DNA of 64,000 nucleotides from the NCBI RefSeq assembly GCF_003858635.1, contig NZ_RQJO01000010.1, positions 558,001 to 622,000 on the forward strand, in the 5' to 3' direction. The number at the start of each line of letters is the position of its first letter. Position 1 is the stretch's first letter. The position numbers and the translations under genes are program-made. Positions 14,958 to 34,425 of the stretch are shown piece after piece. The DNA comes from Larkinella rosea. GTDB taxonomy: Bacteria; Bacteroidota; Bacteroidia; Cytophagales; Spirosomataceae. The notes below the pieces were generated by a model. The model worked only from the letters and a program-made list of their open reading frames with translations, did not search any database and was not told the DNA's origin.

Positions 14958-15551
14958 ATGAACGTCTCAGTTGATCAAAACGAGGAAAAACTACTGGTGG
15001 CCCGTCTTCGTGAGGGCGACCATCTGGCTTTCCGTGCGATCTACGAAAGGTACGCTGACGGGTTGCTCCGGAGACTTCTGAGACTAACCCGCGTGGATCA
15101 CATTGCCGAAGATTTGTTGCAGGAAACGTTTGTAAAGCTGTGGGAAAAACGGGAAACGATCGACCCGGGCCTGCCGGTAAAACCGTGGCTTTACAAAGTG
15201 GCCGAAAATCTGGTGTTTCAATTCTTCCGGAAACTCGCCCTGGATAGTCGGCTTCAGAACGAGATGATCGAGTGGTATGGCAAGGAAAACCGCATCGCAT
15301 TTGAAGAAGAACTTTTTTCGCGGGAAAAGCAGGATTTGCTTCAAAAAGCGATCCAGCAACTATCTCCGCAACAAAAGCAGGTTTTTAATCTTTGCAAACT
15401 GGAAGGCTTGAGCTATGAAGAGGCCGCCAGTACGCTCGGCATTTCGCCTTCTACCGTCAGCAACCACCTTGTGAAAGCCAGCGCCAGCGTGCGCCAGTAT
15501 CTCCGGCAGCACAAGGATTCCATTTTTTGCCTGCTTTCCCTCTTTCTGTAA
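14958..15551 (+). CDS. ECF RNA polymerase sigma factor (FecI-like, Bacteroidota family)
   Basis: 197 residues from the ATG at 14958; a TTG at 14928 would extend it by 10 residues but lies in an unlikely leader. Region 2: LVARLREGDHLAFRAIYERY, DHIAEDLLQETFVKLWEKRE and PWLYKVAENLVFQFFRK. Region 4: LSPQQKQVFNLCKLEGLSYE and EAASTLGISPSTVSNHLVKA, the -35-binding helix-turn-helix. Such sigma factors are held inactive by a FecR partner at the inner membrane and released when the STN domain of a TonB-linked receptor senses its substrate. Here FecR, an STN-containing SusC and a SusD follow in order, so this factor most likely drives 16.8-34.4 kb. Confidence 0.95.
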   Translation: MNVSVDQNEEKLLVARLREGDHLAFRAIYERYADGLLRRLLRLTRVDHIAEDLLQETFVKLWEKRETIDPGLPVKPWLYKVAENLVFQFFRKLALDSRLQNEMIEWYGKENRIAFEEELFSREKQDLLQKAIQQLSPQQKQVFNLCKLEGLSYEEAASTLGISPSTVSNHLVKASASVRQYLRQHKDSIFCLLSLFL

Positions 15552-15683
15552 AATAACCGGAATTCGTTCAGGAATGGCTTTTGTTCCGGGACAGCAATAA
15601 AAACCGGGAACGAAAAAAATATTTTTTTTTCACGGGACTAGTGTGTTTTCCAATCCGGCGCATATAGGGAAGAAAAAAGCATT

Positions 15684-16712
15684 TTGAAGAGTCCAAAAGA
15701 CATCCATGACCTTTTCCCGGGTTTTCTCGCCGGAATGCTGACTCCGCCGGAATTGACCCGATTGTTCCGTCATTTCAGTACAACGGATGAAGCGGAGTTG
15801 CGTTTGCTGATTCAAACGGAAATGGAATTTGAAAGTGAGCCGGGTGAGCAGGCAAACCAGAATCTCAAACCTCGTCTGGAGGCCATTTATAACCGAATTG
15901 ATCAGCAGATACGAACGGAGGTGCGGGCTGAACCTGTCCTTGGCCGCCGGAATTTCCCGGTTTTTCTGCGCTATGCGGCAAGTGTGTTACTGGTCATCGG
16001 GGTTACCTGGCTGTTGATGGAGAAGTTTATTCCCGATTGGAATACCGGTGAATGGCAAAAGGTAACGACCCGGTATGAGCGCAGGAAGATTGCCTTGCCC
16101 GATGGCACTCAGATCTGGCTTGGGCCCCAAAGCAGCCTGGAATATCCGCAGAAGTTTTCCGGCAATCAGCGCCCGGTTAAACTGGATGGCGAGGCATTTT
16201 TCGAGGTAACCCGGGACGTAAACCGCCCATTTACGATCAACTCCGGGAAATTAATCACCCGGGTTCTGGGCACATCTTTCCGAATCGATGCGTACGATAA
16301 TGAAAAGTCGGCAACCGTCACGGTGCTGACCGGCAAGGTTTCGGTTTCGGCAGCAACTGAGCCGTCGGCGGAACTGAAGCTCTTGCCGTTTCAGCAGGCT
16401 TATTTACGACCTGATTCACAGGACGTTGCCATGCGTGTTTATCCTTCGGCAAAGGAATTACTACGCCGAAGAGAAGGCAACATCCGTTACGAAGGAACCA
16501 GTCTGGCTGACATTGTGAGGGATATTCAAAAAATCTCCCCACAACAGATTATTACAGAAGCGGATCTTTCCAAATGCTCGTTCTACGGTGAACTGAAGGC
16601 CGGAGACAACCCACTGAAATTCTTAGAAAACGTCTGTCAAGTCAACAACTTAACCCTCCGGAAGCAAAATGAAACATCGGTAACCATAACAGGCAGCGGC
16701 TGCCGGAAGTAG
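15684..16712 (+). CDS. FecR-family anti-sigma factor
   Basis: 342 residues from a TTG start at 15684. I accept this start because the N-terminal part DIHDLFPGFLAGMLTPPELT belongs to the conserved domain, and the first ATG (15738) would remove half of it; GGGAAG at about 15668-15673 can serve as ribosome-binding site. A single membrane helix lies at ~90-112 (FPVFLRYAASVLLVIGVTWL). The periplasmic FecR domain follows: YERRKIALPDGTQIWLGPQS, KLDGEAFFEVTRDVNRPFTI and TRVLGTSFRIDAYD. The last 90 residues (DUF4974-like, EGTSLADIVRDIQKI, CSFYGELKAGDNP) contact the receptor's STN domain. It keeps the upstream sigma factor at the membrane until the SusC at 16843 signals. It lies 132 bases after the sigma gene. 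Confidence 0.94.
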   Translation: MKSPKDIHDLFPGFLAGMLTPPELTRLFRHFSTTDEAELRLLIQTEMEFESEPGEQANQNLKPRLEAIYNRIDQQIRTEVRAEPVLGRRNFPVFLRYAASVLLVIGVTWLLMEKFIPDWNTGEWQKVTTRYERRKIALPDGTQIWLGPQSSLEYPQKFSGNQRPVKLDGEAFFEVTRDVNRPFTINSGKLITRVLGTSFRIDAYDNEKSATVTVLTGKVSVSAATEPSAELKLLPFQQAYLRPDSQDVAMRVYPSAKELLRRREGNIRYEGTSLADIVRDIQKISPQQIITEADLSKCSFYGELKAGDNPLKFLENVCQVNNLTLRKQNETSVTITGSGCRK

Positions 16713-16816
16713 CTGGGCCAAAAAAAGCCCCTCCTCATCGCCAAACAAGAAAGGGGCACAAGTTAACTGTTTTTAAACCTACAACTGACAATGGCCCGAG
16801 AAGCCGCCGAGTTGGT

Positions 16817-16852
16817 ATGAAACAACTAACCCGTGTAAAACTATGTATTTAA
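16817..16852 (+). other. Possible leader peptide overlapping the SusC start
   Basis: An 11-codon frame, MKQLTRVKLCI-stop, begins 26 bases before the SusC ATG and ends 7 bases after it in another frame. It could couple translation or be a trace of an older N-terminus. There is no direct evidence that it is translated. Confidence 0.3.
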
Positions 16853-19800
16853 ATCTACTATTCAAAGTAAACCGTATCGCCACAGGCGCCAGGTGGTCTG
16901 TTGTGCTGTTCTTTATTTTGACGGCCACGGCCTTGTATGGGCACCCGGCGAGCGCGCAGGAAGTGCTGGAAAAAGAGATCACCGTAAAATTTCAGGATAC
17001 ACCGCTGAAAGTTGTTCTGGAGGAACTGGCCACCAAATCGGGGCTGCGTTTTATGTACGGAGGAGATGTTGCCAGAAGTGGGTTGCTGGTAACTTTTAAA
17101 GCCAGTAACAAATCCCTTAAATACGTTCTGGACGAGATTTTTAGCCCAACCCGGTTTAATTACATTGTCGAGGATAAGAAGATTCTGGTCTTGCAGAACC
17201 AGTCATCCACGGCCGCCAAATCCCTGACAGCTGCCAACAACCAGGGAGTGCTTCCCACGATGCTCGCCAAAGCATCCGAAATCACCATTGGCGGCAAAGT
17301 GACGGATAACAAGGGACAAAGCCTCATCGGTGTAAATATCGTGGTGAAAGGCACCACCGTCGGAACCACGACGGATGAAAACGGCGGTTTTTCCCTGAAG
17401 GTCGGGAATCAGGATCAGGTGCTCGTTTTCTCGTTCGTGGGTTTCCAGACGAAAGAGGTTGAGTTGAAAAACCAGACCCGCCTGGAGGTTGTTTTGCTGG
17501 AGAGCGACAAAACGCTGGAAGAAATCGTGGTAGTGGGTTATGGAACCCAGAAGAAAAGGGACCTGACCGGCGCCGTAGCCCAGATCAGCGCAACTCGGCT
17601 GGAAAACGAAAACCCGGCCTCGGTGCAGGATATCTTACGGGGAAACATTGCCGGGCTCAATGTGGGCTACTCCACGTCGGCCAAACCGGCGAGTTCGCTT
17701 CAGGTGCGGGGAAGTAACTCCCTGAATGCCAACGGAGATCCGTTAATCGTTCTGGATGGGATCATTTATTATGGTCAGTTGCTGGATATCAATCCCAATG
17801 ACATTCAGACCATCGACGTGCTGAAAGACGCCAGTTCGGCGGCCGTGTACGGCGCTAAAGCGGCCAATGGCGTGATCCTGATTACCACCAAAAGTGGCCA
17901 GAGCGGAAAGGCCATGATCACGCTGAATACCAACACCGGTATTACGACGCTGGCTCATGATCAGCCTCTTTATAACGCCAATGATTTTCTGTATTTCCGC
18001 GCCGACGTGCAGCGGAGTATGAACGCCAATCAAAATCCGCTGAAATACACGAACCCGAACGCCCTGCCGAGCTCCATGCCGCTAAAGGACTGGCTCGCTC
18101 TGGACGGAGCCACAGGAGACCCGACAACGACCTGGCTAAACCGCCTGAACCTGAGTCAGGTAGAAATTGATAACTACAAAGCGGGCCGAACCATCGACTG
18201 GTATCGGAAGGTTTTTCAGCAAGGGGTTCAGCAGGATTATAACGTGAGTGTTTCCGGAAAGAACGACGATATTTCCTACTACATTTCGATGGGGTACATG
18301 GATAATCAGGGGATTGTCGTGGGCGACCGGTACCGGACGTTTCGGTCCAGGCTCAATCTCGACGCCCGTATTGCGAAGTTTCTTAAAATCGGGATCAACA
18401 CCCAATTCAGCAGTCGGGATGACGGATACGTGCCCATGACCTGGAGTAACATGGTGAACGCTTCGCCCTGGGGCTCCGAATTTGATGACAAGGGCAACCA
18501 ACGGCTCAGCCCCCAGGACGATCAGATTGCGCTGAATCCTGCGTTGGCGAAAGCCTATACCAACCGCCTGAGTATCAATAATACGCTGATCAGTACGATC
18601 TATTCCGTGGTAACGCTGCCTTTTGGAATTACCTATCAGGCTAACTTTTCGCCGAGACTGGAATTATACCGGTATTTCAATCACCAGTCCGCCGACAGTC
18701 CGCAGTGGGCTCAGGCGGGGGGCTATGCACAACGGGAGCAGCTTGATATCTATAGCTGGCAGATTGACAACCTGTTTAAATGGAAAAGAACGTTTGGCAA
18801 GTCGCACGACCTCGACATTACGTTCCTGGCCAACATGGAAAAATACCAGAGCTGGCAAAACCGGATTGAGAACAGCGGTTTTGACCCCAGCGACCAACTG
18901 GGCTTCCACAACATCGGCACCGGGCGCAATCCCATCGTAACCAGCAACGATGAATACGGCACCGCCGACGCCCTCATGGGCCGCCTGTTCTACTCGTTCA
19001 AAAGCCGGTATATGCTGACACTTTCCCTGCGACGCGACGGCTACTCGGCCTTCGGCCAGAAAAATCCGCGGGCCACTTTCCCGGCCGCTGCCTTGGGCTG
19101 GGTGATCAGTGATGAAAAGTTTTTTAACTCCTCCTGGCTCAATTATCTAAAACTTCGCTTTTCGTACGGTTTTAACGGAAACCGGGACATTGGTCGCTAC
19201 GTAGCCATTTCCGATCTGGTGGCCGGAAAGTACCTGCATGTTTCACCCACCGGCACCCTCAAACAGGTTTCCATGCTGTACGTCAACCGGATGAGCAACG
19301 AAAACCTTCAGTGGGAGAAAAAATCGTCCCTGAATATCGGCGTAGATTTTTCGATGCTGCGGAACCGCATCAGCGGAAGTATTGAGACTTACACAATGAC
19401 CAGCACGAATTTGTTGGTCCAGCGCTCCCTACCGGACGTCACCGGTTTTAAGACGGTTTGGGCCAACCTGGGTGAAATACGAAACCGGGGCATCGAGCTT
19501 AACCTGACCTCCGTCAACATCAACACCCCGCTCGTGACCTGGAAATCGACCCTGAACGTTTCGATGAATCGGAATAAAATCATCAGCCTGTACGGCGACC
19601 GGCAAAACATTCTGGATAGTCAGGGAAAGGTAATTGGCACCCGCGAGCCCAACGACATCACCAACAAGTGGTTTATCGGCCAGCCGCTGGACGTGATCTG
19701 GGACATTAAAATTCTGGGCGTGTACCAGAAAAACGAAGCCGAGATGGCCCAGAAATATGGGGTAAAACCGGGTGATTTCAAATTGCAGGATGTGAACAAC

Positions 19801-20292
19801 GACGGGAAATATACCGATGCCGACCGGCAGTTCCTGGGTTACACCGAGCCCCGGTTTCGGTGGACGCTGCGCAATGAGTTCCGGCTGTTCAGGCGGTTCG
19901 ACCTCTCTTTCATGATGTACTCGTACTGGGGGCATAAGGGTTCGTTCAATACCGCCAAAAACCAGAACGGGTATATGGACCGGGTGAATGCCTATATGCA
20001 GCCTTACTGGACAGCCGAGAACCCGATCAACGATTACGCCCGGCTGTCTTCCAGCGACGGAAGCGCATCGTATAGTGTATACCGTGACCGGTCTTTTGTC
20101 CGACTCGAAAATATATCCGTCGCCTACAATTTGCCTGCCACTTTGTTCGGCAGACTGGGGCTGAAAAATGCGAAGGCTTATTTCAGCGTACGGAACGTGG
20201 CAGTTTACAGTCGGGAGTGGAGCTTCTGGGATCCCGAAAACAGCGCCCCGACGCCGAGAACGGCAACACTGGGCATCAACGTCTCGCTGTGA
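16843..20292 (+). CDS. SusC/RagA-family TonB-linked receptor with N-terminal STN signalling domain
   Basis: 1149 residues. Signal peptide to ~38 (LFFILTATALYGHPASAQ). STN domain at ~45-120 (VKFQDTPLKVVLEELATKSG, SNKSLKYVLDEIF, IVEDKKILVLQ), which in this family contacts FecR. CarboxypepD_reg at ~148-215 (IGGKVTDNKGQSLIGVNIVV, FSFVGFQTKEV), LEEIVVVGYGTQKKRDLTGA, then plug (SVQDILRGNIAGLNV, LQVRGSNSLNANGDPLIVLD, DVLKDASSAAVYGAKAANGV) and barrel, ending PRTATLGINVSL. It imports a glycan and also reports its presence to the FecR/sigma pair encoded upstream, which makes the island substrate-inducible. The SusD follows 88 bases later. Confidence 0.96.
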   Translation: MYLNLLFKVNRIATGARWSVVLFFILTATALYGHPASAQEVLEKEITVKFQDTPLKVVLEELATKSGLRFMYGGDVARSGLLVTFKASNKSLKYVLDEIFSPTRFNYIVEDKKILVLQNQSSTAAKSLTAANNQGVLPTMLAKASEITIGGKVTDNKGQSLIGVNIVVKGTTVGTTTDENGGFSLKVGNQDQVLVFSFVGFQTKEVELKNQTRLEVVLLESDKTLEEIVVVGYGTQKKRDLTGAVAQISATRLENENPASVQDILRGNIAGLNVGYSTSAKPASSLQVRGSNSLNANGDPLIVLDGIIYYGQLLDINPNDIQTIDVLKDASSAAVYGAKAANGVILITTKSGQSGKAMITLNTNTGITTLAHDQPLYNANDFLYFRADVQRSMNANQNPLKYTNPNALPSSMPLKDWLALDGATGDPTTTWLNRLNLSQVEIDNYKAGRTIDWYRKVFQQGVQQDYNVSVSGKNDDISYYISMGYMDNQGIVVGDRYRTFRSRLNLDARIAKFLKIGINTQFSSRDDGYVPMTWSNMVNASPWGSEFDDKGNQRLSPQDDQIALNPALAKAYTNRLSINNTLISTIYSVVTLPFGITYQANFSPRLELYRYFNHQSADSPQWAQAGGYAQREQLDIYSWQIDNLFKWKRTFGKSHDLDITFLANMEKYQSWQNRIENSGFDPSDQLGFHNIGTGRNPIVTSNDEYGTADALMGRLFYSFKSRYMLTLSLRRDGYSAFGQKNPRATFPAAALGWVISDEKFFNSSWLNYLKLRFSYGFNGNRDIGRYVAISDLVAGKYLHVSPTGTLKQVSMLYVNRMSNENLQWEKKSSLNIGVDFSMLRNRISGSIETYTMTSTNLLVQRSLPDVTGFKTVWANLGEIRNRGIELNLTSVNINTPLVTWKSTLNVSMNRNKIISLYGDRQNILDSQGKVIGTREPNDITNKWFIGQPLDVIWDIKILGVYQKNEAEMAQKYGVKPGDFKLQDVNNDGKYTDADRQFLGYTEPRFRWTLRNEFRLFRRFDLSFMMYSYWGHKGSFNTAKNQNGYMDRVNAYMQPYWTAENPINDYARLSSSDGSASYSVYRDRSFVRLENISVAYNLPATLFGRLGLKNAKAYFSVRNVAVYSREWSFWDPENSAPTPRTATLGINVSL

Positions 20293-20380
20293 TGATGCTG
20301 GAAAACGTTCATGCCGCACAACTGGCGGAAGCCAGGTATTGGAAAGGATTTGAAAACCGGTTTTATATAGACCTAAAGTT

Positions 20381-22213
20381 ATGAAACGACGCATTTACAA
20401 TTTGGCTGGGGCCATCGTGCTTCTTTTGATGGCGGGGTGTAATACTGAATTCCTGAAGCCTAAACCCCTCTCTTTCTTTTCTCCCGAAACCACTTTTTCG
20501 GACCCGGAAGCCCTGCAGGCGGGTCTGGTCTCCTGCGAAAACATGCTCCGGGATGAATGGCTCGGCACCGGCTCCCCGATTACCACCCAACTCGTGTTTT
20601 CGGAAGTGGCCATCGAGGGAACGACGGATGCGGCCAAGCCCTCGCAGAACCTGAACCTGCAGATTACGCCGGACGCCGACCTGAACAATTCGGCCACCAC
20701 CCGAATCGGTTGGTTCTGGCAGAAATATTACGAAGGCATCCGGTACGCGAATACGGTGATCAGCCGAATTGACCAGCCAAAATACGCTTCGGAAAAAGAA
20801 CGGAATGCCATCCTGGGAGCCGCCTATTTTCACCGGGCCTACCGGTATTATGGGCTGTGCCATGAGTTTGGCGATGTGCCGCTGGAGTTGAAAGAGCGGA
20901 CGGGTACCAAGCTGGATTACTATTCGACCAAACGGGAGGTGATTCTGACACGAATGAAGCAGGACTTAGAGTTTGCTCAGGAATGGGTCAGCGATGATGT
21001 GGATAAAGGGTCGGTCACCAAAGGGGCGGTCAGTCACCTGTTGACCAAAGTCAATCTCGCGCTGGGCCTTTTTGATGATGCCATAAAATCCGCTGGCAAC
21101 GTGATCGACGGCGGCCGTTACGCATTGATGACCAGCCGGTTTGGCGTCGACAAAGGCAACGCGGCAAAAAATATAACCTGGGACTTGCACCGGCCCGAAA
21201 ACAAGGCGTTGCCCGAAAACCGGGAAGCTCTGATGCTCGTCATCGACCGGCGAAATGTAGCCGGTAATTTTACGGGCAGCAATGGCAGCGATCTCATGTA
21301 CAATGCCGTCCCGCTGTGGTGGAATAACATTCTGACACCCAACGGAAACCGCGGGACGGTGGACCAGGCCGGTATCAATCTCGATCAGGTTACCTTCTAC
21401 GGCCGAGGTGTTGGCAAGGCCCGGGCTACCTGGTATACCACCCGCGCGGTTTGGGGAGCCGCTGAAAAAGAAGATTTCCGGCACGCGCCGGGCAACTGGA
21501 TGCGCATGCAGGACCTCGTTTACAATCATCCCAACCTGAAAACGATTGGGGACCCGTATTACGGAAAGCCCATTCAGCTGTATAGCAACTCAGGCGTGTT
21601 GCTGTGTAGTGATACGATCCGAAACTGGTTCGAGTGGCCGCAGTATAAGCTTTACATTCCGGACCTGGACCGTACTCCGGCCTTTGGAGGACGGACGGAT
21701 TGGTACGTATTCCGGCTGGCGGAAACCTACCTCCTGCGCGCCGAAGCTTATTTCTGGAAGGGGGATTTGGCCCTGGCCGCCCAAGATGTGAACCAGGTCA
21801 GGACCCGGGCGAATGCCCAACCGTTGTTACCTTCGGCCATTACGATCGGGACCATTCTGGACGAGCGGGCGCGTGAACTCTATTACGAGGAGCATCGGAA
21901 GGTGGAGCTGACCCGCATCGCCTACATCCTTGCCAAAACCGGTAAAGCTGCCTACAATGGCAAGTCGTATTCGCTGGCCAATTTTTCGGAAACCAATTTC
22001 TGGTTCGACCGGATCATGGAAAAAACCGAGTTCTACAACAAAGGCGCCAAAACCCGTTATGGCAATCCATACACCATGAGTGCATATCACGTACTTTGGC
22101 CGATTCCCGCCAGCGCAATCAGCGGAAATAGCCGGGGTGTGATCAACCAGAACTTTGGTTATGCCGGTTTTGAGCGAAACAAACCCGCCCTCACCGCGAT
22201 CACCGATGAGTAG
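20381..22213 (+). CDS. SusD/RagB-family outer-membrane lipoprotein (long form)
   Basis: 610 residues, longer than the first SusD. Lipoprotein signal MKRRIYNLAGAIVLLLMAGC with Cys20. SusD features: FFSPETTFSDPEALQAGL, ISRIDQPKYASEKERNAILG, AYFHRAYRYYGLCHEFGDVP, FRLAETYLLRAEAYFWKGDL, DERARELYYEEHRKVELTRI and the near-terminal VLWPIPASAISGNSRGVINQ. It is the surface binding partner of the STN-type SusC. Extra insertions around residues 230-400 distinguish it from the first SusD, suggesting a different ligand. Confidence 0.94.
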   Translation: MKRRIYNLAGAIVLLLMAGCNTEFLKPKPLSFFSPETTFSDPEALQAGLVSCENMLRDEWLGTGSPITTQLVFSEVAIEGTTDAAKPSQNLNLQITPDADLNNSATTRIGWFWQKYYEGIRYANTVISRIDQPKYASEKERNAILGAAYFHRAYRYYGLCHEFGDVPLELKERTGTKLDYYSTKREVILTRMKQDLEFAQEWVSDDVDKGSVTKGAVSHLLTKVNLALGLFDDAIKSAGNVIDGGRYALMTSRFGVDKGNAAKNITWDLHRPENKALPENREALMLVIDRRNVAGNFTGSNGSDLMYNAVPLWWNNILTPNGNRGTVDQAGINLDQVTFYGRGVGKARATWYTTRAVWGAAEKEDFRHAPGNWMRMQDLVYNHPNLKTIGDPYYGKPIQLYSNSGVLLCSDTIRNWFEWPQYKLYIPDLDRTPAFGGRTDWYVFRLAETYLLRAEAYFWKGDLALAAQDVNQVRTRANAQPLLPSAITIGTILDERARELYYEEHRKVELTRIAYILAKTGKAAYNGKSYSLANFSETNFWFDRIMEKTEFYNKGAKTRYGNPYTMSAYHVLWPIPASAISGNSRGVINQNFGYAGFERNKPALTAITDE

Positions 22214-22364
22214 CCTTTCATAACTTCTAATTCCGTCACCAAATAAGGTCGAACAATGCCGACAGCCTTAAATTTCAGGGGTTGGGTGGGGGCTTATTGC
22301 GCAACACTTCCGCCAGCGCCGGTAACGACTTATTGAACATCCAAAGAAAAACCCGTTAACCAAC

Positions 22365-23714
22365 ATGATTAAAGAAAAAAGCGACCGGAGAACGTTCCTT
22401 GCCACCACGATAAAAGGTACAGCCGCCCTTTCATTGGGGGGAGTCTTACCCGGTTTCAGTCCCCGGAGTTATGCCAGTATTATTGGCGCCAATGAACGAG
22501 TCAATGTCGGTATCATGGGAGTGAATAACCGGGGCCGGGCCCTGGCCAAGAATTTTGCCTCCCAACCCAACAGCCGGGTCGTTCATATTTCAGACGTAGA
22601 CAGCCGGGCATCGGCTCGATCGATTGACGAAGTGACGAAGGTGCAAAACAGCAAACCGGTGGATACGCCGGATTTCAGAAAGGCCCTGGAAGATAAACAA
22701 CTGGATGCCCTGGTCATTGCCGCGCCGGATTTCTGGCATGCCCACGCGTCCATTATGGCGTTGAAGGCCGGGAAACACGTGTACGTGGAAAAACCGTGCA
22801 GTTATGATCCGAATGAAGGGGAAATTCTGGTCAAGGCTTCCAAAAAATACAAAGGCGTCATCCAAATGGGCAATCAGCGACGTTCGTGGCCCAACATCGT
22901 CAAAGCCATTCAGGAGTTGCACGCGGGCGCGATCGGCCGGGTTTATTTCGGAAAGGGCTGGTACGCCAATACGCGGCTGGACATCGGGAAAGGAAAAGAA
23001 ACGGCAGTTCCGTCCTGGCTCAACTACGACCTCTGGCAGGGACCCGTCCCCCGACGGCCCTACCGGGATAATCTGGTGCACTACAACTGGCACTGGTTCT
23101 GGCATTGGGGCACCGGCGAGGCCGTTGGCAATGGGGTGCATATGCTCGACATGCTGCGCTGGGGAATGGGGGTTGAGTATCCGGTGCGGGTGACATCCGC
23201 CGGTGGCCGCTATCACTTTTCCGATGATTGGGAAACGCCGGATACCCAGATCATTACCTGGGAGTTTGCCAACAAAAGCAGTATTCTTTGGGAAGCCAGA
23301 AGCTGTAACGGCCACGGGGTGGACGACATCGGCGTGGGCGTGACCTTTTACGGCGAAAACGGCTCCCTGACCATCAACGGAAATGGGTATATTATTTATG
23401 ACCTGAAGGGCGCCGTGGTCAAGAACGTCAAAGAAGGAGACAACATGAATTTGCTCGACCGAACCAACCCTTCCCAAAATCTGGATTCGCTGCACTTCCA
23501 GAATTTCTTCGACGCCATCAAAACCGGTGCCACCCTGAACGCCGACATTCCCAACGGGCACATCAGTACGCTGCTCTGCCAGTTGGGAAACATCGCCTGG
23601 CGAACCGGCGACGTCCTGCTCACCGATCCGACAAACGGCCACATCCTCAACAGTGCGAAAGGCAAAAAGCTCTGGGCGCGCACCTATGAACCCGGCTGGG
23701 AACTGACGATCTAA
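22365..23714 (+). CDS. Tat-exported Gfo/Idh/MocA-family oxidoreductase
   Basis: 449 residues. The Tat signal is DRRTFLATT with Arg8-Arg9, followed by a hydrophobic run ending near SPRSYA. The Rossmann start is VNVGIMGVNNRGRALAKNFA (~45-65), and the family Lys is in YVEKPCSY (~residue 141). The C-terminal half holds HWHWFWHWGTGEAVGNGVHM, then DMLRWGMGVEYP, where the His/Asp residues bind substrate. Members oxidise or reduce sugar hydroxyls with tightly bound NAD(P); exported ones are thought to keep the cofactor during Tat transport and some act at C3 of glycosides. It is the first enzyme gene after the STN-SusC/SusD pair, so its substrate is probably the glycan brought in by that pair. Confidence 0.9.
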   Translation: MIKEKSDRRTFLATTIKGTAALSLGGVLPGFSPRSYASIIGANERVNVGIMGVNNRGRALAKNFASQPNSRVVHISDVDSRASARSIDEVTKVQNSKPVDTPDFRKALEDKQLDALVIAAPDFWHAHASIMALKAGKHVYVEKPCSYDPNEGEILVKASKKYKGVIQMGNQRRSWPNIVKAIQELHAGAIGRVYFGKGWYANTRLDIGKGKETAVPSWLNYDLWQGPVPRRPYRDNLVHYNWHWFWHWGTGEAVGNGVHMLDMLRWGMGVEYPVRVTSAGGRYHFSDDWETPDTQIITWEFANKSSILWEARSCNGHGVDDIGVGVTFYGENGSLTINGNGYIIYDLKGAVVKNVKEGDNMNLLDRTNPSQNLDSLHFQNFFDAIKTGATLNADIPNGHISTLLCQLGNIAWRTGDVLLTDPTNGHILNSAKGKKLWARTYEPGWELTI

Positions 23715-23789
23715 ACACACCATATCCCTTTAAACAATATTACACCTTCCTGCCTCCGGGCGGGAAGGTTGAATAACCACGGCCTTTTC

Positions 23790-25121: not shown

Positions 25122-25142
25122 TCCTTTCCATTTTAAATACTG

Positions 25143-25931: not shown

Positions 25932-25960
25932 CCCATCCTCAAGAATCAAAAGCAGGAACC

Positions 25961-26971: not shown

Positions 26972-28158
26972 AACCCAACCTTTACAGCATCGTTAACGGC
27001 AAAATCCTGACGCCCCGGCGGTGTATCCCAAACGGGAGCGTGCAGGTGGAAAATGGCGTCATTACCGGCGTGCATGAACGATCCTTCTGCGCGCCCGGTT
27101 CAACGGAGATCGACGCAGGTGGCCACTACATCGCACCCGGTTTCATCGATATTCACGTGCACGGAGGTGGCGGGGCGGATTTTATGGATGCAATCGACGA
27201 AGCGTTCCGGACAGTTGCGGCTACGCACCTTCGGCATGGGACAACGGCCATGACACCGACCACCCTAACGGCGGGTAAAGATGAACTCGCCGAAACGCTA
27301 ACCGTCTGCCAGCGGGCAATGGCAGGCAATACCGGGGGTGTCCGTTTTCTGGGGATGCACTTGGAAGGCCCCTATTTTGCTCTGAATCAGCGCGGTGCCC
27401 AGGACCCCCGGTTCATCCGAAATCCGGATCCCGAAGAGTACCAGTCCCTGATCGACCGGTTTTCCGGCGTATTGTCCCGCTGGAGCGCAGCTCCGGAACT
27501 GCCCGGTGCACTGGATTTTGCGCGATATGCCGTATCCAAAGGCATCTTAATTTCTTTAGCTCATACCGATGCCCTTTACGATGATATTGTCAACGGTTTT
27601 GATCACGGTTACACACTGGCCACTCACCTGTATTCCGCCATGAACGGCGTGACTCGCCGGGGTACATTCCGGTATGCCGGTGCGGTGGAGGCCGCTTTTT
27701 TAATCCCTGAAATGGATGTGGAGATCATTGCTGACGGCATTCATTTACCGCCCCCGTTGTTGCAACTGGTTTATAAAATGAAAGGCCCCGACCGCATCGC
27801 CCTGGTTACGGATGCGATGAGAGGGGCGGGTTTGCCCGAGGGAACCAGTATTCTGGGATCGCTTCGTCATGGAATCAGTGTCATTGTTGAAGACGGGGTT
27901 GCCAAAATGCCGGATCGATCCGGGTTCGCGGGTAGCGTCGCGACCATGGACCGACTGGTGCGTACGATGGTTCATCAGGCGAATATTCCCCTAATCGACG
28001 CCGTCAAAATGGCTTCATCTACTCCCGCCCGCATCATGGGAGCTACGCAACTCGGGACGCTGGTTGAAGGAAAACGGGCCGACATCGTCCTATTTGACGA
28101 CGACATCCAAATCAAACTTGTGATGGTGGATGGGCAGGTTCTGATCGACACGTTGTAA
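26968..28158 (+). CDS. nagA: N-acetylglucosamine-6-phosphate deacetylase
   Basis: 396 residues, normal length for NagA, cytoplasmic. The metal-binding HxH is in GFIDIHVHGGGGADFMD (His63, His65); the metal Glu is in GMHLEGPYF (Glu133); further His residues lie in SLAHTDALYDD and ATHLYSAMNG; DGIHLPP holds substrate contacts and ALVTDAMRGAG carries the catalytic Asp. The enzyme removes acetate from GlcNAc-6-phosphate to give glucosamine-6-phosphate, the substrate of NagB. It is coupled to the upstream oxidoreductase by an ATGA overlap. No GlcNAc kinase is encoded in the window, so the phosphorylated substrate must come from a kinase elsewhere. Confidence 0.94.
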   Translation: MKPNLYSIVNGKILTPRRCIPNGSVQVENGVITGVHERSFCAPGSTEIDAGGHYIAPGFIDIHVHGGGGADFMDAIDEAFRTVAATHLRHGTTAMTPTTLTAGKDELAETLTVCQRAMAGNTGGVRFLGMHLEGPYFALNQRGAQDPRFIRNPDPEEYQSLIDRFSGVLSRWSAAPELPGALDFARYAVSKGILISLAHTDALYDDIVNGFDHGYTLATHLYSAMNGVTRRGTFRYAGAVEAAFLIPEMDVEIIADGIHLPPPLLQLVYKMKGPDRIALVTDAMRGAGLPEGTSILGSLRHGISVIVEDGVAKMPDRSGFAGSVATMDRLVRTMVHQANIPLIDAVKMASSTPARIMGATQLGTLVEGKRADIVLFDDDIQIKLVMVDGQVLIDTL

Positions 28159-28207
28159 TTCGTTTACGGTGGAATTCTTTTCGGCAATATCATTATAACC
28201 ACTAGCA

Positions 28208-31200
28208 ATGAAAGAAAAGAAAATGGCGGCATCAATGGCCAATGGGAAAAGTGAAAGGTACAAAGGGGTATATTATATCGCGGTTGTATTACTGGGCTTC
28301 GGCCTACTGGGATCAACTTCCCAAAAACCGGTGCCCCCCCCCGGTTTGATTGTACCCGACGGTTTTACGATAGAGCCTGTGGTTTCTCCCGATCTTCTCT
28401 CCTACCCGATGTTTGCCAGCTTTGACGGAGAAGGCCGGCTGTTTGTTTTTGAGTCGACCGGGGCCAATACCGCGGGCACGGAAGCGATGCTTAAAAACCC
28501 GTCCTACCAGGTGCGGTTACTGGAAGACCGCGATCAGGACGGCACGTTTGACAAAAGCCATATTTACGCAGACAGTATTCCCTTTCCGAAAGGGGGCGTG
28601 TTTTACCAGGGCAGCCTTTACGTGGCCGAAGCACCTAATCTGGCGAAATACACCGATACGAATGGTGATGGCGTATCCGATAAAAAGGAAATCCTGCTTT
28701 CCGGCTGGAATTTCCACGCAAACGGAGCAACGTTAAGCGGTCCTTTTTTAAGCCCCGACGGCTGGTTGTACATGACCGATGCCCGCCGGGGGTTTCACAT
28801 TAAAACCAAAGAAGGAACCGTGCTGAGCGGAAAAGCAACCCGAATCTGGCGGTGCCGTCCCGATGGGTCAGGGCTGGAAGCATTGGCGGCCGGCGGTTTC
28901 GACAACTCGATCGAACTGGTGTTTATGCCTTCCGGCGAAACGGTGGGAACCATGACCTATTTTGTAGACCCCCGCGATGGTCAGCGCGATGCGCTCATGC
29001 ACTGGGTAGAAGGCGGCACCTACCCCAAACCGAACCCGGTGATTGCCGAAGACAAGCTTAAACTGACCGGAGACCTGATGCCGGTGATGACCAAGCTGGC
29101 CCGCGTTGCCCCTTCGGGCATCATGCGTTACCGGGGAACGGTTTTGGGGGCTGAGTATCAGAACAATCTGTTTAACGCCGAGTTCAACACCGGCCGGGTG
29201 ATGCGGCATCGTGTGCAACCCGATGGAGGGAGTTTCAAAACCATCGACGAAGTCTTTATGAAATCGTCGGCGCCGGACTCACACCCGACGGATGTTTTAC
29301 AGGATGCCGATGGTAGCTTGCTGGTTGTGGTGACGGGTGGCTGGTTTATCGAAGGTTGCCCGTTGTCGCGGGTGTCGAAGCCGGAATTGCGGGGCGGTAT
29401 TTACCGGATCAGAAAAACCGGTGCGCCGGTCGTAGCGGACCCCTGGGGTAAAAAGGTAAAATGGGCAGATTTAAGTCCAGGCAATCTGGCAAATTACCTG
29501 GCCGATGCCCGGCCTTTTGTCCGCGATAACGCCATTAATCAGCTGGTCAAACGGGGGGAAAGTTCAGTTCCTGCCATGTTGAAAGCCATGTCTGCCATCA
29601 AAGTTGAGGATTGGAAAGCGGACGCTGTATTTGCCTTATCCAGAATGCAAACGGAAACCGCCTGGAATGGTGTCCGGAATGCATTGAACGATAAAAGTGC
29701 CATCGTCCGAACGGCGGCAGTCCGGGCATTGGGTTTGGCGAATGACAAAAAATCGGTTACGAAACTGATGGAAATGGTTGGACAGGACCAGTTCCCCGTT
29801 CGTCGGCAAGCGGCTACGGCATTGGGGCAAATTGGGGATGTGAAGGCAGTACCGGCCCTTCTGAAAGCCTCGGGAGAGGGAAATGACCGGTTTGTCCGGC
29901 ACGCCATTATTCATTCGCTGATTTTGCTGAAAAGTCCTGCTCCGTTACTCAAGGCATTGGAAAGTCCGTCGGCCCCTGTCCGAACCGCTGCACTGATTGC
30001 CCTGGATCAGATGGACAACTCGCCCTTGAAAAAGGAGCATTTAGCCCCGGTGCTGGCAAGTCAGGATGCGCGGATTCGGGATACGGGAATCTGGATTGCT
30101 TCGCACCACCCCGAGTGGACCGATATGGTGATTGCCTTTCTCGAAAAACGGATGGCACAAAAAGATCTTTCCGATTCTGATGCCCTTTCGATGCAGGAGT
30201 TGATGCTGACATGCATCAAAGAACCAAAACTGCAGGATTTTGTCGCGAGCCAGTTGGGGAACTCCGCCATTTCGGAAAACCGCAAATTACTTACCCTCAA
30301 TGTGGTCGGCAAATCCCCGCTGAAAGAACTGCCCGCGTCCTGGACCAGCGAAATGGGCAATCTGCTGCAAAGTGGTTCGCCATCGGTCCGCTCCCAGGTT
30401 TTGTCGTTGATCGAATCAAGGCGGCTTACGTCCCTGCAAAGCAAGCTCGATCAGATCGCGGGCGACCCAAAGATTTCTTCAGACTTCCGGCTGAAAGCCT
30501 TGGGTGCGCGGGTGATGAGCCTCCCGCAACTCTCGGAGGATGAATTTGCATTGCTGTTGAAATCCCTGGGCCCCGAAAATGAGTCGCCCTTGCGGCAAAG
30601 GGCGGTTCGACTATTGGACAATGCCGAACTGACCAACGACCAGTTGCTGGTCATTGCCCGGACCCAACTGCCTAACGCCGATCCGTTTCTTTTACCGGGT
30701 CTGATGCAAGCCTTTGAAGGCAGTACGAGCGAGCAGGTTGGCAATGAACTGGTTGCCGGCGTCGGGACCGACACGGGTCGACTGGACAATGTTTCTGAAC
30801 AGGATTTGCAGCGGCTGTTGAAAAGCTACCCGGTTTCCGTGCAAAACCTCGCCGAATCCCTGATGGCGAAAATCAGGGCCCAGAATGCCGGGCGGTTGTC
30901 CAATCTGCAGAAAATAGAAGCGGGGCTGAAAGGCGGTGATGTGGGCGAAGGTCGCAAGCTGTTTTTCGGCAAAGCGTCCTGTTTCACCTGCCACTCGGTG
31001 GGCCGGGAAGGAGGACATTTTGGACCGGATCTGACCAATATCGGTGAAATTCGTTCCAAACACGACATTTTGGAAGCCGTGGTGTACCCAAGTGCGAGTT
31101 TTGCGCGAGAGTATGAAACCTTCCGGGTAGTCACCCAAACAACGGCCTACGTGGGTATTATCAAAGAGCAGCTTCCCGAAACCGTCGTGATGGAATTAGG

Positions 31201-31384
31201 CCCTGGCCCCGGGCTGCGAATCCCGCGGTCGGAGATCAAAGCCATTGAACCCCAAACAGTCTCCATGATGCCTCCCGGCCTCGATAAGGCGCTTACCCAA
31301 ACCGAAATGGCCCATCTAACCGCCTTTCTGGAAGCCCTCCCTTATCGGCTGGACCGCATGCTGAAAGCAAAGGAAAACAACTAG
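28208..31384 (+). CDS. PVC-type propeller, HEAT-repeat and cytochrome c protein
   Basis: 1058 residues in three parts. An N-terminal membrane or signal segment (YYIAVVLLGFGLLGSTSQ, ~22-39) is followed by a dehydrogenase-like propeller at ~50-410 (FASFDGEGRLFVFE, TDTNGDGVSDKKE, FLSPDGWLYMTDARRG, SHPTDVLQDADGSLLVVVTG). Residues ~425-790 are HEAT repeats (VRTAAVRALGLANDKKSVTK, VRRQAATALGQIGDVKAVPA). Around residue 925 a c-type heme site SCFTCHSVG starts a cytochrome c domain, with the distal ligand probably in a later Met-containing loop. This architecture is common in Planctomycetota and Cytophagales and is thought to oxidise sugars in the periplasm and pass electrons to heme; the substrate is not established. 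The DUF1080 gene follows 27 bases downstream. Confidence 0.9.
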   Translation: MKEKKMAASMANGKSERYKGVYYIAVVLLGFGLLGSTSQKPVPPPGLIVPDGFTIEPVVSPDLLSYPMFASFDGEGRLFVFESTGANTAGTEAMLKNPSYQVRLLEDRDQDGTFDKSHIYADSIPFPKGGVFYQGSLYVAEAPNLAKYTDTNGDGVSDKKEILLSGWNFHANGATLSGPFLSPDGWLYMTDARRGFHIKTKEGTVLSGKATRIWRCRPDGSGLEALAAGGFDNSIELVFMPSGETVGTMTYFVDPRDGQRDALMHWVEGGTYPKPNPVIAEDKLKLTGDLMPVMTKLARVAPSGIMRYRGTVLGAEYQNNLFNAEFNTGRVMRHRVQPDGGSFKTIDEVFMKSSAPDSHPTDVLQDADGSLLVVVTGGWFIEGCPLSRVSKPELRGGIYRIRKTGAPVVADPWGKKVKWADLSPGNLANYLADARPFVRDNAINQLVKRGESSVPAMLKAMSAIKVEDWKADAVFALSRMQTETAWNGVRNALNDKSAIVRTAAVRALGLANDKKSVTKLMEMVGQDQFPVRRQAATALGQIGDVKAVPALLKASGEGNDRFVRHAIIHSLILLKSPAPLLKALESPSAPVRTAALIALDQMDNSPLKKEHLAPVLASQDARIRDTGIWIASHHPEWTDMVIAFLEKRMAQKDLSDSDALSMQELMLTCIKEPKLQDFVASQLGNSAISENRKLLTLNVVGKSPLKELPASWTSEMGNLLQSGSPSVRSQVLSLIESRRLTSLQSKLDQIAGDPKISSDFRLKALGARVMSLPQLSEDEFALLLKSLGPENESPLRQRAVRLLDNAELTNDQLLVIARTQLPNADPFLLPGLMQAFEGSTSEQVGNELVAGVGTDTGRLDNVSEQDLQRLLKSYPVSVQNLAESLMAKIRAQNAGRLSNLQKIEAGLKGGDVGEGRKLFFGKASCFTCHSVGREGGHFGPDLTNIGEIRSKHDILEAVVYPSASFAREYETFRVVTQTTAYVGIIKEQLPETVVMELGPGPGLRIPRSEIKAIEPQTVSMMPPGLDKALTQTEMAHLTAFLEALPYRLDRMLKAKENN

Positions 31385-31411
31385 CGCCGGTTTTATAATT
31401 ATATCCACACC

Positions 31412-32209
31412 ATGAAAACAATCCCGTATCCAGGTATTTCCCTCTTTGTATTCCTTTACTTGTTATCCAAAACGCCACTCGTTTATGCCCAAAACTCAAC
31501 AATACAATTGTTCGATGGCAAAAGTTTAAATGGCTGGTACCGGTTTGTGGAAAAACGGGGCCGGGAGAACGATGTCAAGAATGTATTCACGGTCGAAAAG
31601 GGACTGATTCACGTCTCGGGCGAGGAATACGGCAGCATCATTACCGACGAGGAATACGCGAATTACACGCTGACCGTGGAGTTCAAATGGGGCGACAACA
31701 CCTACGCCCCCCGGGCCGACCGGGCGCGCGATAGTGGCGTGCTCCTGCACTCGACCGGGCCGGACGGCGGGTATCGCGGCATCTGGATGCGCTCCATCGA
31801 ATGCCAGCTCATTGAAGGCGGAACCGGTGATTTTCTGGTCGTCGGCGACGGCAGCGACAACTACGCCCTGACGGCCACCATTGCCCCCCCAAAAGAGGGC
31901 GGGGGGCGCGTTTTTTCGCCTTCGGGTACGCCCGTCACCATCCACAGTGGCCGCATCGACTGGTTCGACCGCGACCCGAACTGGAAGGATGTCAAGGGGT
32001 TTCGGGGCGCGAAAGACGTGGAAAAACCGCTCGGGGAGTGGAATACGATAACTTGTGTGGCCGAAGGCGACCAGGTAACCATTTACCTGAACGGAACGCT
32101 GGTCAATCAGGCGACGCAGATAAAGCCGTCGAAAGGGCGTATCCAGATTCAGTCGGAAGGCGCCGAGCTGTTTGTCAGAAAAGTACAATTGAGTCCGTTA
32201 CGGAAATAA
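31412..32209 (+). CDS. Secreted DUF1080 (3-keto-disaccharide hydrolase-like) protein
   Basis: 265 residues with a signal peptide ending at LVYAQ (~26). DUF1080 features: IQLFDGKSLNGWYRFVEKRG, FTVEKGLIHVSGEEYGSIIT, YANYTLTVEFKWGDN, DSGVLLHSTGPDGGYRGIWM, RSIECQLIEGGTGDF, EWNTITCVAEGDQVTIYLNG, and IQIQSEGAELFVRKVQL. The fold is a concanavalin-like sandwich. Some members cleave 3-keto-glycosides by elimination after an oxidoreductase has oxidised C3. It is encoded between the PVC-type redox protein and a third oxidoreductase, the context expected for such a step. A 13-bp inverted repeat follows at 32229-32269. Confidence 0.88.
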   Translation: MKTIPYPGISLFVFLYLLSKTPLVYAQNSTIQLFDGKSLNGWYRFVEKRGRENDVKNVFTVEKGLIHVSGEEYGSIITDEEYANYTLTVEFKWGDNTYAPRADRARDSGVLLHSTGPDGGYRGIWMRSIECQLIEGGTGDFLVVGDGSDNYALTATIAPPKEGGGRVFSPSGTPVTIHSGRIDWFDRDPNWKDVKGFRGAKDVEKPLGEWNTITCVAEGDQVTIYLNGTLVNQATQIKPSKGRIQIQSEGAELFVRKVQLSPLRK

Positions 32210-32228
32210 CACCTGTACTCCCAGATCT

Positions 32229-32269
32229 CTAAAGGGGACTTTCAAATCCGGGTTACAAGTCCCCTTTAG
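32229..32269. repeat. Inverted repeat of the AAAGGGGACTT type
   Basis: CTAAAGGGGACTT (32229-32241) pairs with AAGTCCCCTTTAG (32257-32269) around a 15-base loop. There is no T-tract after it. The following GGGGATTCAGGGG continues the repetitive pattern. It looks like an intergenic repeat rather than a terminator. Confidence 0.65.
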
Positions 32270-32324
32270 GGGATTCAGGGGTACAGAGCAAAATAAAACC
32301 AAAACCGATTAACCGAAATTTGTA

Positions 32325-33407
32325 ATGTCCGATCAGTTGAAATCGCTGCGCGTCCTGGTGGTGGGATGCGGCAACATGGGCTCTTCCCACGCCACGGCCT
32401 ACCACAACCTGGAGGGCTTTGACATCTGCGGCATCGTCTCCACCGGCAAAAGCAAGGAAATTCTAAATGAAAAACTGGGGGGCGGTTATCCGCTGTTCAG
32501 CGATTTCGACCAGGCCCTGGCAACCACCCAACCGGATGCCGTTTGTATCTCCACCTACCCCGATACACACGAGGCATTTGCCGTCAAATCGTTCGAGGCC
32601 GGCTGCCATGTGTTTATCGAAAAACCGGTCGCCGACTCGGTGGCCGGGGCCGAGCGCGTGGTGGCAGCCGCCGTCAAAGCGGGAAAAAAGCTGGTGGTGG
32701 GCTATATTTTACGGCATCATCCATCCTGGGAAAAGTTTGTGGAGCTTTCGCACGAGGTGGGAAAACCGCTGGTGATGCGCATGAACCTCAACCAGCAGAG
32801 CGACACCAGCATGTGGACGCTGCACCGGAATTTGATGAAAAGCCTCAGCCCGATCGTGGATTGCGGGGTGCATTACATCGACGTGATGTGCCAGATGACG
32901 CGTTCAAAACCGGTTCAGGTCTACGCCATCGGCGCCCGGCTGACGGACGAAATTCCCGCCGATAACTACAACTACGGCCAACTCCAGATCCGGTTCGATG
33001 ACGGGTCGGTGGGGTGGTACGAAGCGGGCTGGGGACCGATGGTGAGCGAAACCGCTTTTTTCGTCAAGGATGTGTTCGGGCCGAAAGGCAGCGTTTCCAT
33101 CGTGGCCAAAGAGGCCGGGGGCGAAGGCAAGTCGTCGTCCATCGAAGCGCACACCAAAACCGAGTCGATCCGGGTGCATCATTCGGAGCTGGACGCCAAC
33201 GAAAAATTCGCCAAAGCCGATACCTGGATCAATCTGGAAGACGAACCCGACCACCAGGAGCTGTGCAACCGCGAGCAGCGGTATTTTCTCAAAGCCATCC
33301 GGGAGGATGTCGACCTGACGGATCACATGCAGGACGCCGTCAACAGCCTGCGGATTGCCTTCGCCTGTGACGAATCGGTGCGGACGGGCCAGGTGGTTAT
33401 TCTATAA
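32325..33407 (+). CDS. Gfo/Idh/MocA-family oxidoreductase (cytoplasmic)
   Basis: 360 residues, no signal sequence. Classic Rossmann start VLVVGCGNMGSSHATAYHNL (~10-29), AVCISTYPDTHEAFAVKSFE, catalytic Lys in HVFIEKPVADS (~97-107), IVDCGVHYIDVMCQMTRSKP with the conserved Asp and His of the substrate site. Members use NAD(P) to interconvert hydroxyl and keto groups of sugars or inositols. Unlike the two earlier oxidoreductases it stays in the cytoplasm, so it may reduce the keto-sugar after import. The following 3-hydroxyacyl-CoA-dehydrogenase-like gene starts 25 bases downstream. Confidence 0.88.
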   Translation: MSDQLKSLRVLVVGCGNMGSSHATAYHNLEGFDICGIVSTGKSKEILNEKLGGGYPLFSDFDQALATTQPDAVCISTYPDTHEAFAVKSFEAGCHVFIEKPVADSVAGAERVVAAAVKAGKKLVVGYILRHHPSWEKFVELSHEVGKPLVMRMNLNQQSDTSMWTLHRNLMKSLSPIVDCGVHYIDVMCQMTRSKPVQVYAIGARLTDEIPADNYNYGQLQIRFDDGSVGWYEAGWGPMVSETAFFVKDVFGPKGSVSIVAKEAGGEGKSSSIEAHTKTESIRVHHSELDANEKFAKADTWINLEDEPDHQELCNREQRYFLKAIREDVDLTDHMQDAVNSLRIAFACDESVRTGQVVIL

Positions 33408-33432
33408 GTGGCTTATTAATACTAGTTTACGC

Positions 33433-34425
33433 ATGAATCTTATTCCGCAAGAGATCCCGGTTGGCCTCGTTGGCCTGGGGCTGATGGGCTGCAGCATTAC
33501 CACCTGTTTACTGATTGCGGGGCATCCCGTGGTGGCCGTCGCGCCGATTCCCGACGATCTGATTTATGCCCTGACCCGGATTCAGGATCACCTCGAGCGA
33601 TCTTTGCAGCACGGGTTGATCGATCAGCAGCCGGATCATTATTTGAGTAAGCTGATCCTGACGGAGGATTATCAGGAGCTTCGGCCCTGTCAACTGGTCA
33701 TCGAGTGCACGATCGAAAACCGGGCGATCAAGGAGTCGGTGTACCAAAAAGTGGAGCGGGTGATTGCGCCCGACGCGCTGCTGGCGAGCAATACGTCGGC
33801 GATTCCCATCAGCGTGTTGCAGCAACTGACGCAGCACCCGAAGCGGTTTTTTGGGCTGCACTGGGCCGAACCGGCCCACACGACCCGGTTTCTGGAAATC
33901 ATTTGCGGGGACGACAGCGCGGTTTCGCAGGGCGAGTATCTCTATGAACTGGCTCATTTTTGGCGGAAAGAGCCGATTCTGGTCCGAAAAGACATTGCCG
34001 GTTTTATCACCAACCGGCTGATGTACGCCATGTACCGGGAAGCGATCAGTCTGGTGGAGAAGGGCTACGCGACGGTGGAGGACGTGGACCGTTCGTGCCG
34101 CAACAACGCGGGGTATTTCATGACATTGGTGGGCGTTTTTCGCTGGATGGACCTGACGGGCGTTCCGGCGTATTACACCGTGATGAAAGACCTGCTGCCG
34201 ACGCTCAACAACAGCACGGAAGTGCCGAAGCTGATTGACGACATTGTCAAAAGTGGCGGCCGGGGAGTGGCCAATGCGCAGGGTTTTTACGACTACACGC
34301 CGGAAGAAGCCAAACTCTGGGAGGAAACCTTCACGGAATTCAGCTTCAAAATCCGCGAAATCGCCCTGCAATACCCGGCTGATTACGTCAAACAAAAATT
34401 GAAAGAAAAGGAAAAAGGGAGTTGA
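33433..34425 (+). CDS. 3-hydroxyacyl-CoA dehydrogenase-like NAD-dependent dehydrogenase (possibly L-gulonate 3-dehydrogenase-like)
   Basis: 330 residues from the ATG at 33433; a longer frame from 33355 overlaps the previous gene and is not needed. Rossmann start VGLVGLGLMGCSITTCLLIA, then LVIECTIENRAIKESVYQKV and LLASNTSAIPISVLQQL, all typical of the family. The catalytic His loop, usually HFFNP, is GLHWAEPAHTTRFLEI here. DIAGFITNRLMYAMYREAIS and GYATVEDVDR follow. Family members oxidise 3-hydroxyacyl-CoA, or in the lambda-crystallin branch L-gulonate at C3. Single-domain length, the altered loop and a carbohydrate neighbourhood make a sugar-acid substrate more likely than an acyl-CoA, but this is inference. 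It is the last gene of the long co-oriented island. Confidence 0.8.
   Translation: MNLIPQEIPVGLVGLGLMGCSITTCLLIAGHPVVAVAPIPDDLIYALTRIQDHLERSLQHGLIDQQPDHYLSKLILTEDYQELRPCQLVIECTIENRAIKESVYQKVERVIAPDALLASNTSAIPISVLQQLTQHPKRFFGLHWAEPAHTTRFLEIICGDDSAVSQGEYLYELAHFWRKEPILVRKDIAGFITNRLMYAMYREAISLVEKGYATVEDVDRSCRNNAGYFMTLVGVFRWMDLTGVPAYYTVMKDLLPTLNNSTEVPKLIDDIVKSGGRGVANAQGFYDYTPEEAKLWEETFTEFSFKIREIALQYPADYVKQKLKEKEKGS

Follow-up and report, generated by a model that had tools for sequence, protein, structure and literature searches.

The 13-gene run at positions 14958-34425 of the window (the whole stretch of DNA analysed, 64,000 nucleotides from Larkinella rosea) encodes a divergent deaminase, NagB' (25143-25931), and the new point of this analysis is that, judged by its residues, this protein is not an ordinary NagB. 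Together with a divergent deacetylase, NagA' (26968-28158), it belongs to a conserved core, MocA1-NagP-NagB'-MocA2-NagA' (22365-28158), to which a separable oxidative module is joined. The NagA'/NagB' pair is probably not for N-acetylglucosamine 6-phosphate (GlcNAc-6-phosphate). We tentatively favour the reading that the operon, controlled by a sigma/anti-sigma pair of its own, serves amino-sugar utilisation and that the NagA'/NagB' substrate is other than GlcNAc-6-phosphate and most likely lacks a 6-phosphate.

Phosphate-contacting residues of NagB'

NagB' is a member of PF01182 (Glucosamine_iso), with a score of 135.6 bits against the NCBI nagB model TIGR00502, below the cut-off of 236.9. 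At the position of the TGGTP loop of Escherichia coli NagB the window protein reads GAAPSQ, Arg172 (E. coli numbering) is replaced by Gln and position 140 is Glu, while Asp72, His143 and Lys208 are kept; it also differs from the E. coli protein by D141N, which is present in the host's ordinary NagB as well, and by E148D. The AlphaFold2 model (predicted local distance difference test, pLDDT, 96.3) has the NagB fold, with a template modelling (TM) score on the query of 0.80 to 2ri1 and with 2ri0 as the best Foldseek match (E 1.1e-23, 29% identity). The predicted structures of NagB' and of the oxidoreductase MocA2 (pLDDT 90.1; top folds of the 1,5-anhydrofructose reductase and inositol-dehydrogenase types) showed the expected folds only and indicated no substrate.

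A scan for relatives with the peptide patterns N[GT]H[IL]AFND and QQV[NH]D[GK][CA]F matched at least 596 stretches, at least 585 of them confirmed as relatives, and the best 80 of these were analysed together with a set of 43 loci (123 NagB' loci in total). Among the matches listed, the relatives belonged by title mostly to Bacteroidota and Clostridia, and also to Paenibacillus, Thermoanaerobacterales, Ignavibacteriales, Chloroflexi and a Bathyarchaeota bin. The TGxxP phosphate loop was found in none of the 123 loci (absent from 80/80 and 43/43), where the loop is mostly FAAAP or FASAP followed by SQ; the comparison set, consisting of E. coli NagB, two other host paralogues, the host 6-phosphogluconolactonase and three NagB proteins of relatives, has [TSG]GxxP in 7/7. 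The lid arginine, Arg172, is Gln in 123/123 loci, position 140 is Glu in 122/123, and Asp72 and His143, which we take to be catalytic residues of NagB, are kept in all 123, with the 80-locus set biased by the scan patterns at positions 141, 143 and 148 and in the QQV stretch with 172, and with the loop and Lys208 in neither pattern.

According to a molecular dynamics study (PMC8369159), the phosphate in Streptococcus mutans NagB is held by Ser37, Thr38, Lys194 and, via water, Arg127, while the entrance is the site of Arg159. In our alignment Arg127, Arg159 and Lys194 correspond to E. coli positions 140, 172 and 208 (the chain numbering being one ahead of that in PMC8369159), and Ser37-Thr38 would by position be the TGxxP loop, the alignment starting after it. 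On this mapping, three of the four phosphate contact sites are changed in NagB' and one is kept.

The NagB' clade was monophyletic in the tree (114 tips, local support 0.87), and a sister type with the loop ATG[TA]SQ, found at L008 and L100 of the 43-locus set, joined it at 0.94. At L008 (8524-12527), which lies in the host genome, the sister-type paralogue (loop ATGTSQ) adjoins a protein with a GH109 domain, with MurQ nearby; this paralogue may represent a form between ordinary NagB and NagB'.

Residues of NagA'

NagA' of the window, which matches the Pfam family Amidohydro_1, keeps the metal ligands, the catalytic Asp273 and Arg227, and carries H143Q and N219S. These two changes occur together in 43/59 loci of the 80-locus set and 20/24 of the 43-locus set that have a NagA neighbour, and the phosphate-binding Asn is replaced by Ser in 64 of the 83, with the Arg usually kept. 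The host's ordinary NagA (L016) has GVH and HLYNAM. In human AMDHD2 the phosphate is held by the matching Asn and, from the other subunit, a His and an Arg (PMC8970586). As evidence on phosphate binding the NagA residues are mixed.

Conservation of the core and its neighbourhood

The core genes are tightly spaced, and the end of the MocA2 frame runs into the beginning of NagA'. A contiguous MocA1-NagP-NagA'-NagB' was present in 11 of the 17 same-family loci L074-L090, as counted from a map whose picking of open reading frames (ORFs) misses some genes. The window's own core order recurs in L074, whose NagA' frame is 203 amino acids long. Other Bacteroidota have versions of the core with NagP or a sodium/solute symporter (SSS)-type transporter, and Firmicutes have more or less complete sets of AraC, MocA1, MocA2, a xylose-isomerase-like barrel, NagB' and NagA', whose order differs between loci (e.g. 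L131, L140, L160, L172, L199, L203). A ceramidase-like gene (PF04734) occurs in clusters of both groups (L077; L172).

Since greedy ORF picking in the cluster maps misses some NagB' genes (e.g. L077, L133), neighbours were scored using all ORFs, within 8 kb and on the same strand. The control comprised 40 ordinary-NagB loci from genomes also having NagB' or the sister type (40 of 43 such places, one in G185 and two in G219 being omitted); of these 40, L235, L243 and L244 share sequence with stretches in which a NagB' is present as well. Gfo/Idh/MocA genes lay near NagB' in 24/43 and 39/80 loci vs 4/40 for ordinary NagB, NagA in 27/43 and 61/80 vs 0/40, and NagP in 23/43 and 29/80 vs 0/40; loci of one family cannot be treated as independent in these counts, and the test set has an advantage, since NagB' clusters were the source of the NagA and NagP profiles and of most MocA profiles. 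Amino-sugar genes and Gfo/Idh/MocA oxidoreductases are thus genuinely associated, and across phyla: a preliminary description of this DNA had linked them in the run, and the link recurs in other classes and phyla, above the ordinary-NagB control. The single amino-sugar island of that description was upheld as to the amino-sugar context (relatives of the core lie near GH20 or GH109 genes) but not as to its unity, the tail being separable.

GH20-type genes were present in 17 of the 43 loci by clustering, with three members checked by Pfam, and a protein at L273 that is 65% identical to the L008 protein matching the Pfam GH109 domain also lies near relatives of the core. Ordinary NagB accompanied the AAPSQ type in 31 of 36 genomes (E <= 1e-50), or in 34 of 41 if five sister-type-only genomes (G196, G282, G291, G313, G322) are counted in. 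The host itself (assembly of 8.17 Mb in 18 contigs) keeps an ordinary NagA and an ordinary NagB besides NagA'/NagB', and has five GH20 and five ROK matches outside the island; no BadF-type kinase scored above cut-off in its genome.

Kinases were scarce around NagB'. Three ROK frames were found in the 123 loci, the one in L092 being kinase-sized and on the opposite strand and the other two 410 amino acids long with a helix-turn-helix-like N-terminus by eye; FGGY kinases lay within 8 kb in 4/123 loci and PfkB kinases in 5/123. A cluster in Thermoanaerobacteraceae (L169, 1807-14087) combines a class II aldolase, an FGGY kinase, an epimerase-like barrel, tripartite ATP-independent periplasmic (TRAP)-type genes, a SIS protein, NagB', NagA' and a split transketolase (TRAP and transketolase named by reading), and from these gene families it looks like a route with phosphorylation after deamination.

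The separable oxidative module

The tail, PVC-DUF1080-MocA3-HCDH (28208-34425), begins 49 bases after the core. A second copy is present on host contig C16 (L009, 3401-9522), with identities of 98% for the 3-hydroxyacyl-CoA-dehydrogenase-like protein (HCDH), 98% for MocA3, 85% for DUF1080 and 68% for the PVC-type protein; identity of 98% in two of four proteins suggests a recent duplication or conversion. A distant NagB paralogue with the loop SGDTP lies near that copy. The same four genes are found in genome G108 (L278), and within the stretches read neither NagA' nor NagB' was found beside the module on C16 or in L278. One conserved 13-gene island was therefore rejected, as the tail module also occurs without nag genes. 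By clustering rather than profile search, DUF1080 appeared in no more than 4 of the 43 loci on the map.

Nine other genomes of the same family, closely related among themselves, have a relative of HCDH (50-54% identity) at a distance of 17-21 kb from NagB'; with the window included, the two are near each other in 10 of the 37 genomes having both, vs about 0.55 pairs expected. The operon of this relative holds GntR, SusCD, creatininase, RidA, HCDH, enolase-superfamily, EamA, dihydrodipicolinate synthase (DHDPS)-type and short-chain dehydrogenase/reductase (SDR) genes, with GH20-type genes where the stretch reaches, and it looks like non-phosphorylative sugar-acid chemistry. Its position near NagB' is the best reason for keeping HCDH in the picture.

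The oxidoreductases

MocA1 (22365-23714, PF01408) is a distant relative of the BT_2158 glycoside 3-dehydrogenases, scoring 134.2 bits against BT_2158_fam, far below the cut-off of 750, with 8tdf and 8tdh as its nearest solved structures. Near its N-terminus stands DRRTFLATT, which, like the N-terminal motif of MocA2, we take to be of the twin-arginine translocation (Tat) type. MocA2 (25961-26971, start refined; PF01408) is a small protein with a GLDTSHS motif and with DKP, Tyr210 and His213 invariant in 34 sequences; it had no match among PDB sequences at E 0.001. MocA3 (32325-33407; PF01408, 93.6 bits) has no obvious signal peptide. Membership of GH109 was considered for all three and rejected, none matching the GH109 C-terminal model PF21252 at E 0.01 (the positive control at L008 scored 143.5 bits). 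Oxidation at C3 by these enzymes is suggested by family resemblance, and no description of a 3-keto amino-sugar route was found in the open-licence PubMed Central (PMC) literature.

Other genes of the run and the window

Families of the 13 proteins were assigned by Pfam profile search, and the NagP, NagA, NagB and BT_2158 types by NCBI equivalog or subfamily cut-offs. Translation and profile search bore out the 13 genes of the preliminary description in the order and shared orientation it gave, all on the + strand in one run and with every frame open. The run begins with an extracytoplasmic function (ECF) sigma factor (14958-15551, Sigma70_r2 and r4_2, ATG start refined to 14958) and a FecR-type anti-sigma factor (15684-16712, PF04773). 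A SusC-like TonB-dependent receptor follows (16843-20292); the call of "STN-SusC" was right for SusC (Plug and CarbopepD_reg_2) but not for the STN part, which was absent among its Pfam matches. Next come a SusD-like lipoprotein (20381-22213; PF07980, 151.9 bits) and, after MocA1, a NagP/FucP-type major facilitator superfamily (MFS) permease (23790-25121, start refined), which exceeds the gluP subfamily cut-off (TIGR01272, 234.7 vs 202.55 bits) and falls below that of the NagP equivalog (355 vs 625 bits).

In the tail, the PVC-type propeller/HEAT/cytochrome c protein (28208-31384; DUF7133, HEAT and cytochrome c) is above the cut-offs of TIGR02604 and TIGR02603, the DUF1080 protein (31412-32209; 3keto-disac_hyd, PF06439) scores 113.4 bits against a cut-off of 26.8 and has a signal-peptide-like N-terminus by eye, and HCDH (33433-34425, start refined; PF02737 and PF00725) has 4om8 as its nearest solved structure (146 bits). 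The preliminary description had seen no recognisable glycoside hydrolase or GlcNAc kinase in the run, and Pfam matched no glycoside hydrolase or kinase family in the 13 proteins, the DUF1080 family itself excepted.

Beyond the run, positions 34426-35358 are gene-poor, and the 2-kb bin 34001-36000 has a G+C content of 0.412 vs 0.559 and 0.495 in the flanking bins. Just downstream lie a Gfo/Idh/MocA protein of PF19051 type (36722-38092) and a second DUF1080 gene (38136-38858), and further on a SASA-type carbohydrate esterase (57418-58212) and a sulfatase (60195-61892). Upstream are a DUF1080-like gene just under the Pfam cut-off (2239-3999), a glucose/sorbosone-dehydrogenase-type gene (4148-5569) and a creatininase-family gene (7177-7941), a family also represented in the sister islands with the HCDH relative.

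Interpretation and alternatives

On our preferred reading, a compound containing an N-acetylhexosamine would cross the outer membrane through SusCD and, in the periplasm, undergo an NAD(P)-linked redox step by the presumably exported MocA1 and MocA2, likely at C3 to judge from their family. NagP would import the sugar, NagA' would take off the acetyl group, and NagB' would open the ring, turning the 2-amino-aldose into a ketose and ammonia, without a prior 6-phosphate. In favour of this reading are the residue changes in NagB' and NagA', the monophyly of the clade, the ordinary NagA and NagB retained by the host, the frequency of MocA and NagA genes beside NagB', and the amino-sugar genes near it in relatives (GH20, GH109, a NagX-like protein). 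If the substrate has no 6-phosphate, a missing kinase is to be expected. It is possible, and we propose it with some reserve, that NagA'/NagB' represent a kinase-free route in which a deacetylase and a ring-opening deaminase, coupled to Gfo/Idh/MocA enzymes, act on a hexosamine that carries no phosphate and may already have been oxidised, a route spread across Bacteroidota and Firmicutes. The missing kinase was itself rejected as proof of such a route, because the ordinary-NagB control loci also lack kinases.

Several observations weigh against a substrate without 6-phosphate. The phosphate ligand Lys208 is kept in 123/123 NagB' loci and Arg227 in 55/59 and 21/24 NagA neighbours, so an anion may still be bound; position 140 is Asn in E. 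coli NagB and hence not a fixed phosphate contact; NagA' passes the nagA model TIGR00221 (274.3 bits, cut-off 225.65); and the NagA neighbour keeps its Asn in 14/59 and 2/24 loci and His143 in 14/59. Since kinases are also rare near ordinary NagB (ROK 2/40, PfkB 1/40), little can be concluded from their absence. MurQ, an enzyme whose name implies a 6-phosphate substrate, lies near NagB' in L091, L130 and L159. No description of the NagB' clade or of an assayed member was found in the open-licence PMC literature. The nagA score, the retained Lys208 and (mostly) Arg227, the five ROK proteins elsewhere in the host genome, MurQ near three clade members and the ordinary NagB loci without adjacent kinases would all suit a conventional GlcNAc-6-phosphate (or N-acetylgalactosamine 6-phosphate) pathway, with the kinase encoded elsewhere and phosphate bound by NagA'/NagB' in a new way. 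We consider this rather doubtful given the loss of the loop and lid Arg at every NagB' locus and of the NagA Asn at most, the ordinary NagA and NagB that the genome already has, and a kinase-sized ROK in L092 only, of 123 loci searched for ROK, PfkB and FGGY kinases only. The retained Lys208 and Arg227 might instead hold another anion at C6, that of a 2-acetamido-2-deoxy-hexuronate or a 6-sulfate, from which NagB' would yield a keto-uronate or sulfated ketose. L093 has a glucuronate isomerase above cut-off and KdgK-, 2-keto-3-deoxy-6-phosphogluconate (KDPG)-aldolase- and sugar-acid-MFS-like genes below cut-offs near NagB', clustering places uronate-type genes directly after NagB' in L183 and near it in L177, TRAP-type genes (named by reading) stand beside it in L134 and L169, and a sulfatase is two genes from NagA' in L007. 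This version is unlikely, in that the window and its close relatives have a NagP-type permease, neither uronate genes nor a sulfatase turned up within the core operon, a NagX-like protein (glucosamine acetylation) lies near NagB' in L094, and the uronate genes may be meant for a different residue in a polymer of mixed composition.

In the full scheme of the preliminary description the sugar would be oxidised at C3 outside, freed from its aglycone by DUF1080, reduced again inside by MocA3 or HCDH, phosphorylated and then passed to NagA/NagB. This scheme can draw on the presence of all its gene families, on the HCDH relatives near NagB' in nine other genomes and on the Bacteroides precedent (PMC11300592 and PMC9007349), where BT2158 acts in the periplasm as a glycoside 3-dehydrogenase and BT2157, a DUF1080 protein, hydrolyses 3-ketotrehalose. 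It is nevertheless improbable. Its release and re-reduction steps are weakened because DUF1080, MocA3 and HCDH belong to a module also found without nag genes, and the low count of DUF1080 in the clustered map adds to this. The residue changes further disfavour a phosphorylated route: the action on GlcNAc-6-phosphate that it assigned to NagA and NagB sits poorly with two proteins that diverge at phosphate-contacting positions, some contacts remaining.

Should the clade use another substrate, as we favour, its names would mislead for hundreds of genomes (at least 585 confirmed relatives among the matches listed), since family models can call such genes GlcNAc-6-phosphate enzymes, as NagA' passing the NCBI nagA cut-off illustrates, and a wide bacterial group would have an uncharted amino-sugar use. 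The NagA'/NagB' pair also bears on whether Gfo/Idh/MocA sugar oxidoreductases reach amino-sugar metabolism outside GH109.

Comparison with known systems

The GH109 NAD-dependent alpha-N-acetylgalactosaminidases resemble the present system in the Gfo/Idh/MocA fold and an amino-sugar substrate, and a GH109-domain protein adjoins another NagB paralogue in the host genome, but the window oxidoreductases lack a match to the GH109 C-terminal model. The Bacteroides 3-keto-glycoside pathway (BT2157-BT2159) likewise pairs an exported Gfo/Idh/MocA protein with DUF1080; here MocA1 is far from BT_2158_fam, the partners are nagA/nagB-like and DUF1080 clusters with few of the loci. Compared with NagA, the GlcNAc-6-phosphate deacetylase, NagA' shares the metal ligands, the catalytic Asp, the neighbouring Arg and a passing TIGR00221 score, and differs in His143 to Gln and in the phosphate-binding Asn219 to Ser. 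NagB' shares with the NagB proteins of S. mutans (2ri1), Bacillus subtilis (2bkv) and E. coli the fold, the catalytic Asp72 and His143 and the phosphate-binding Lys, whereas it departs from them in the TGxxP loop, Arg172, residue 140, D141N, E148D and a score below the equivalog cut-off.

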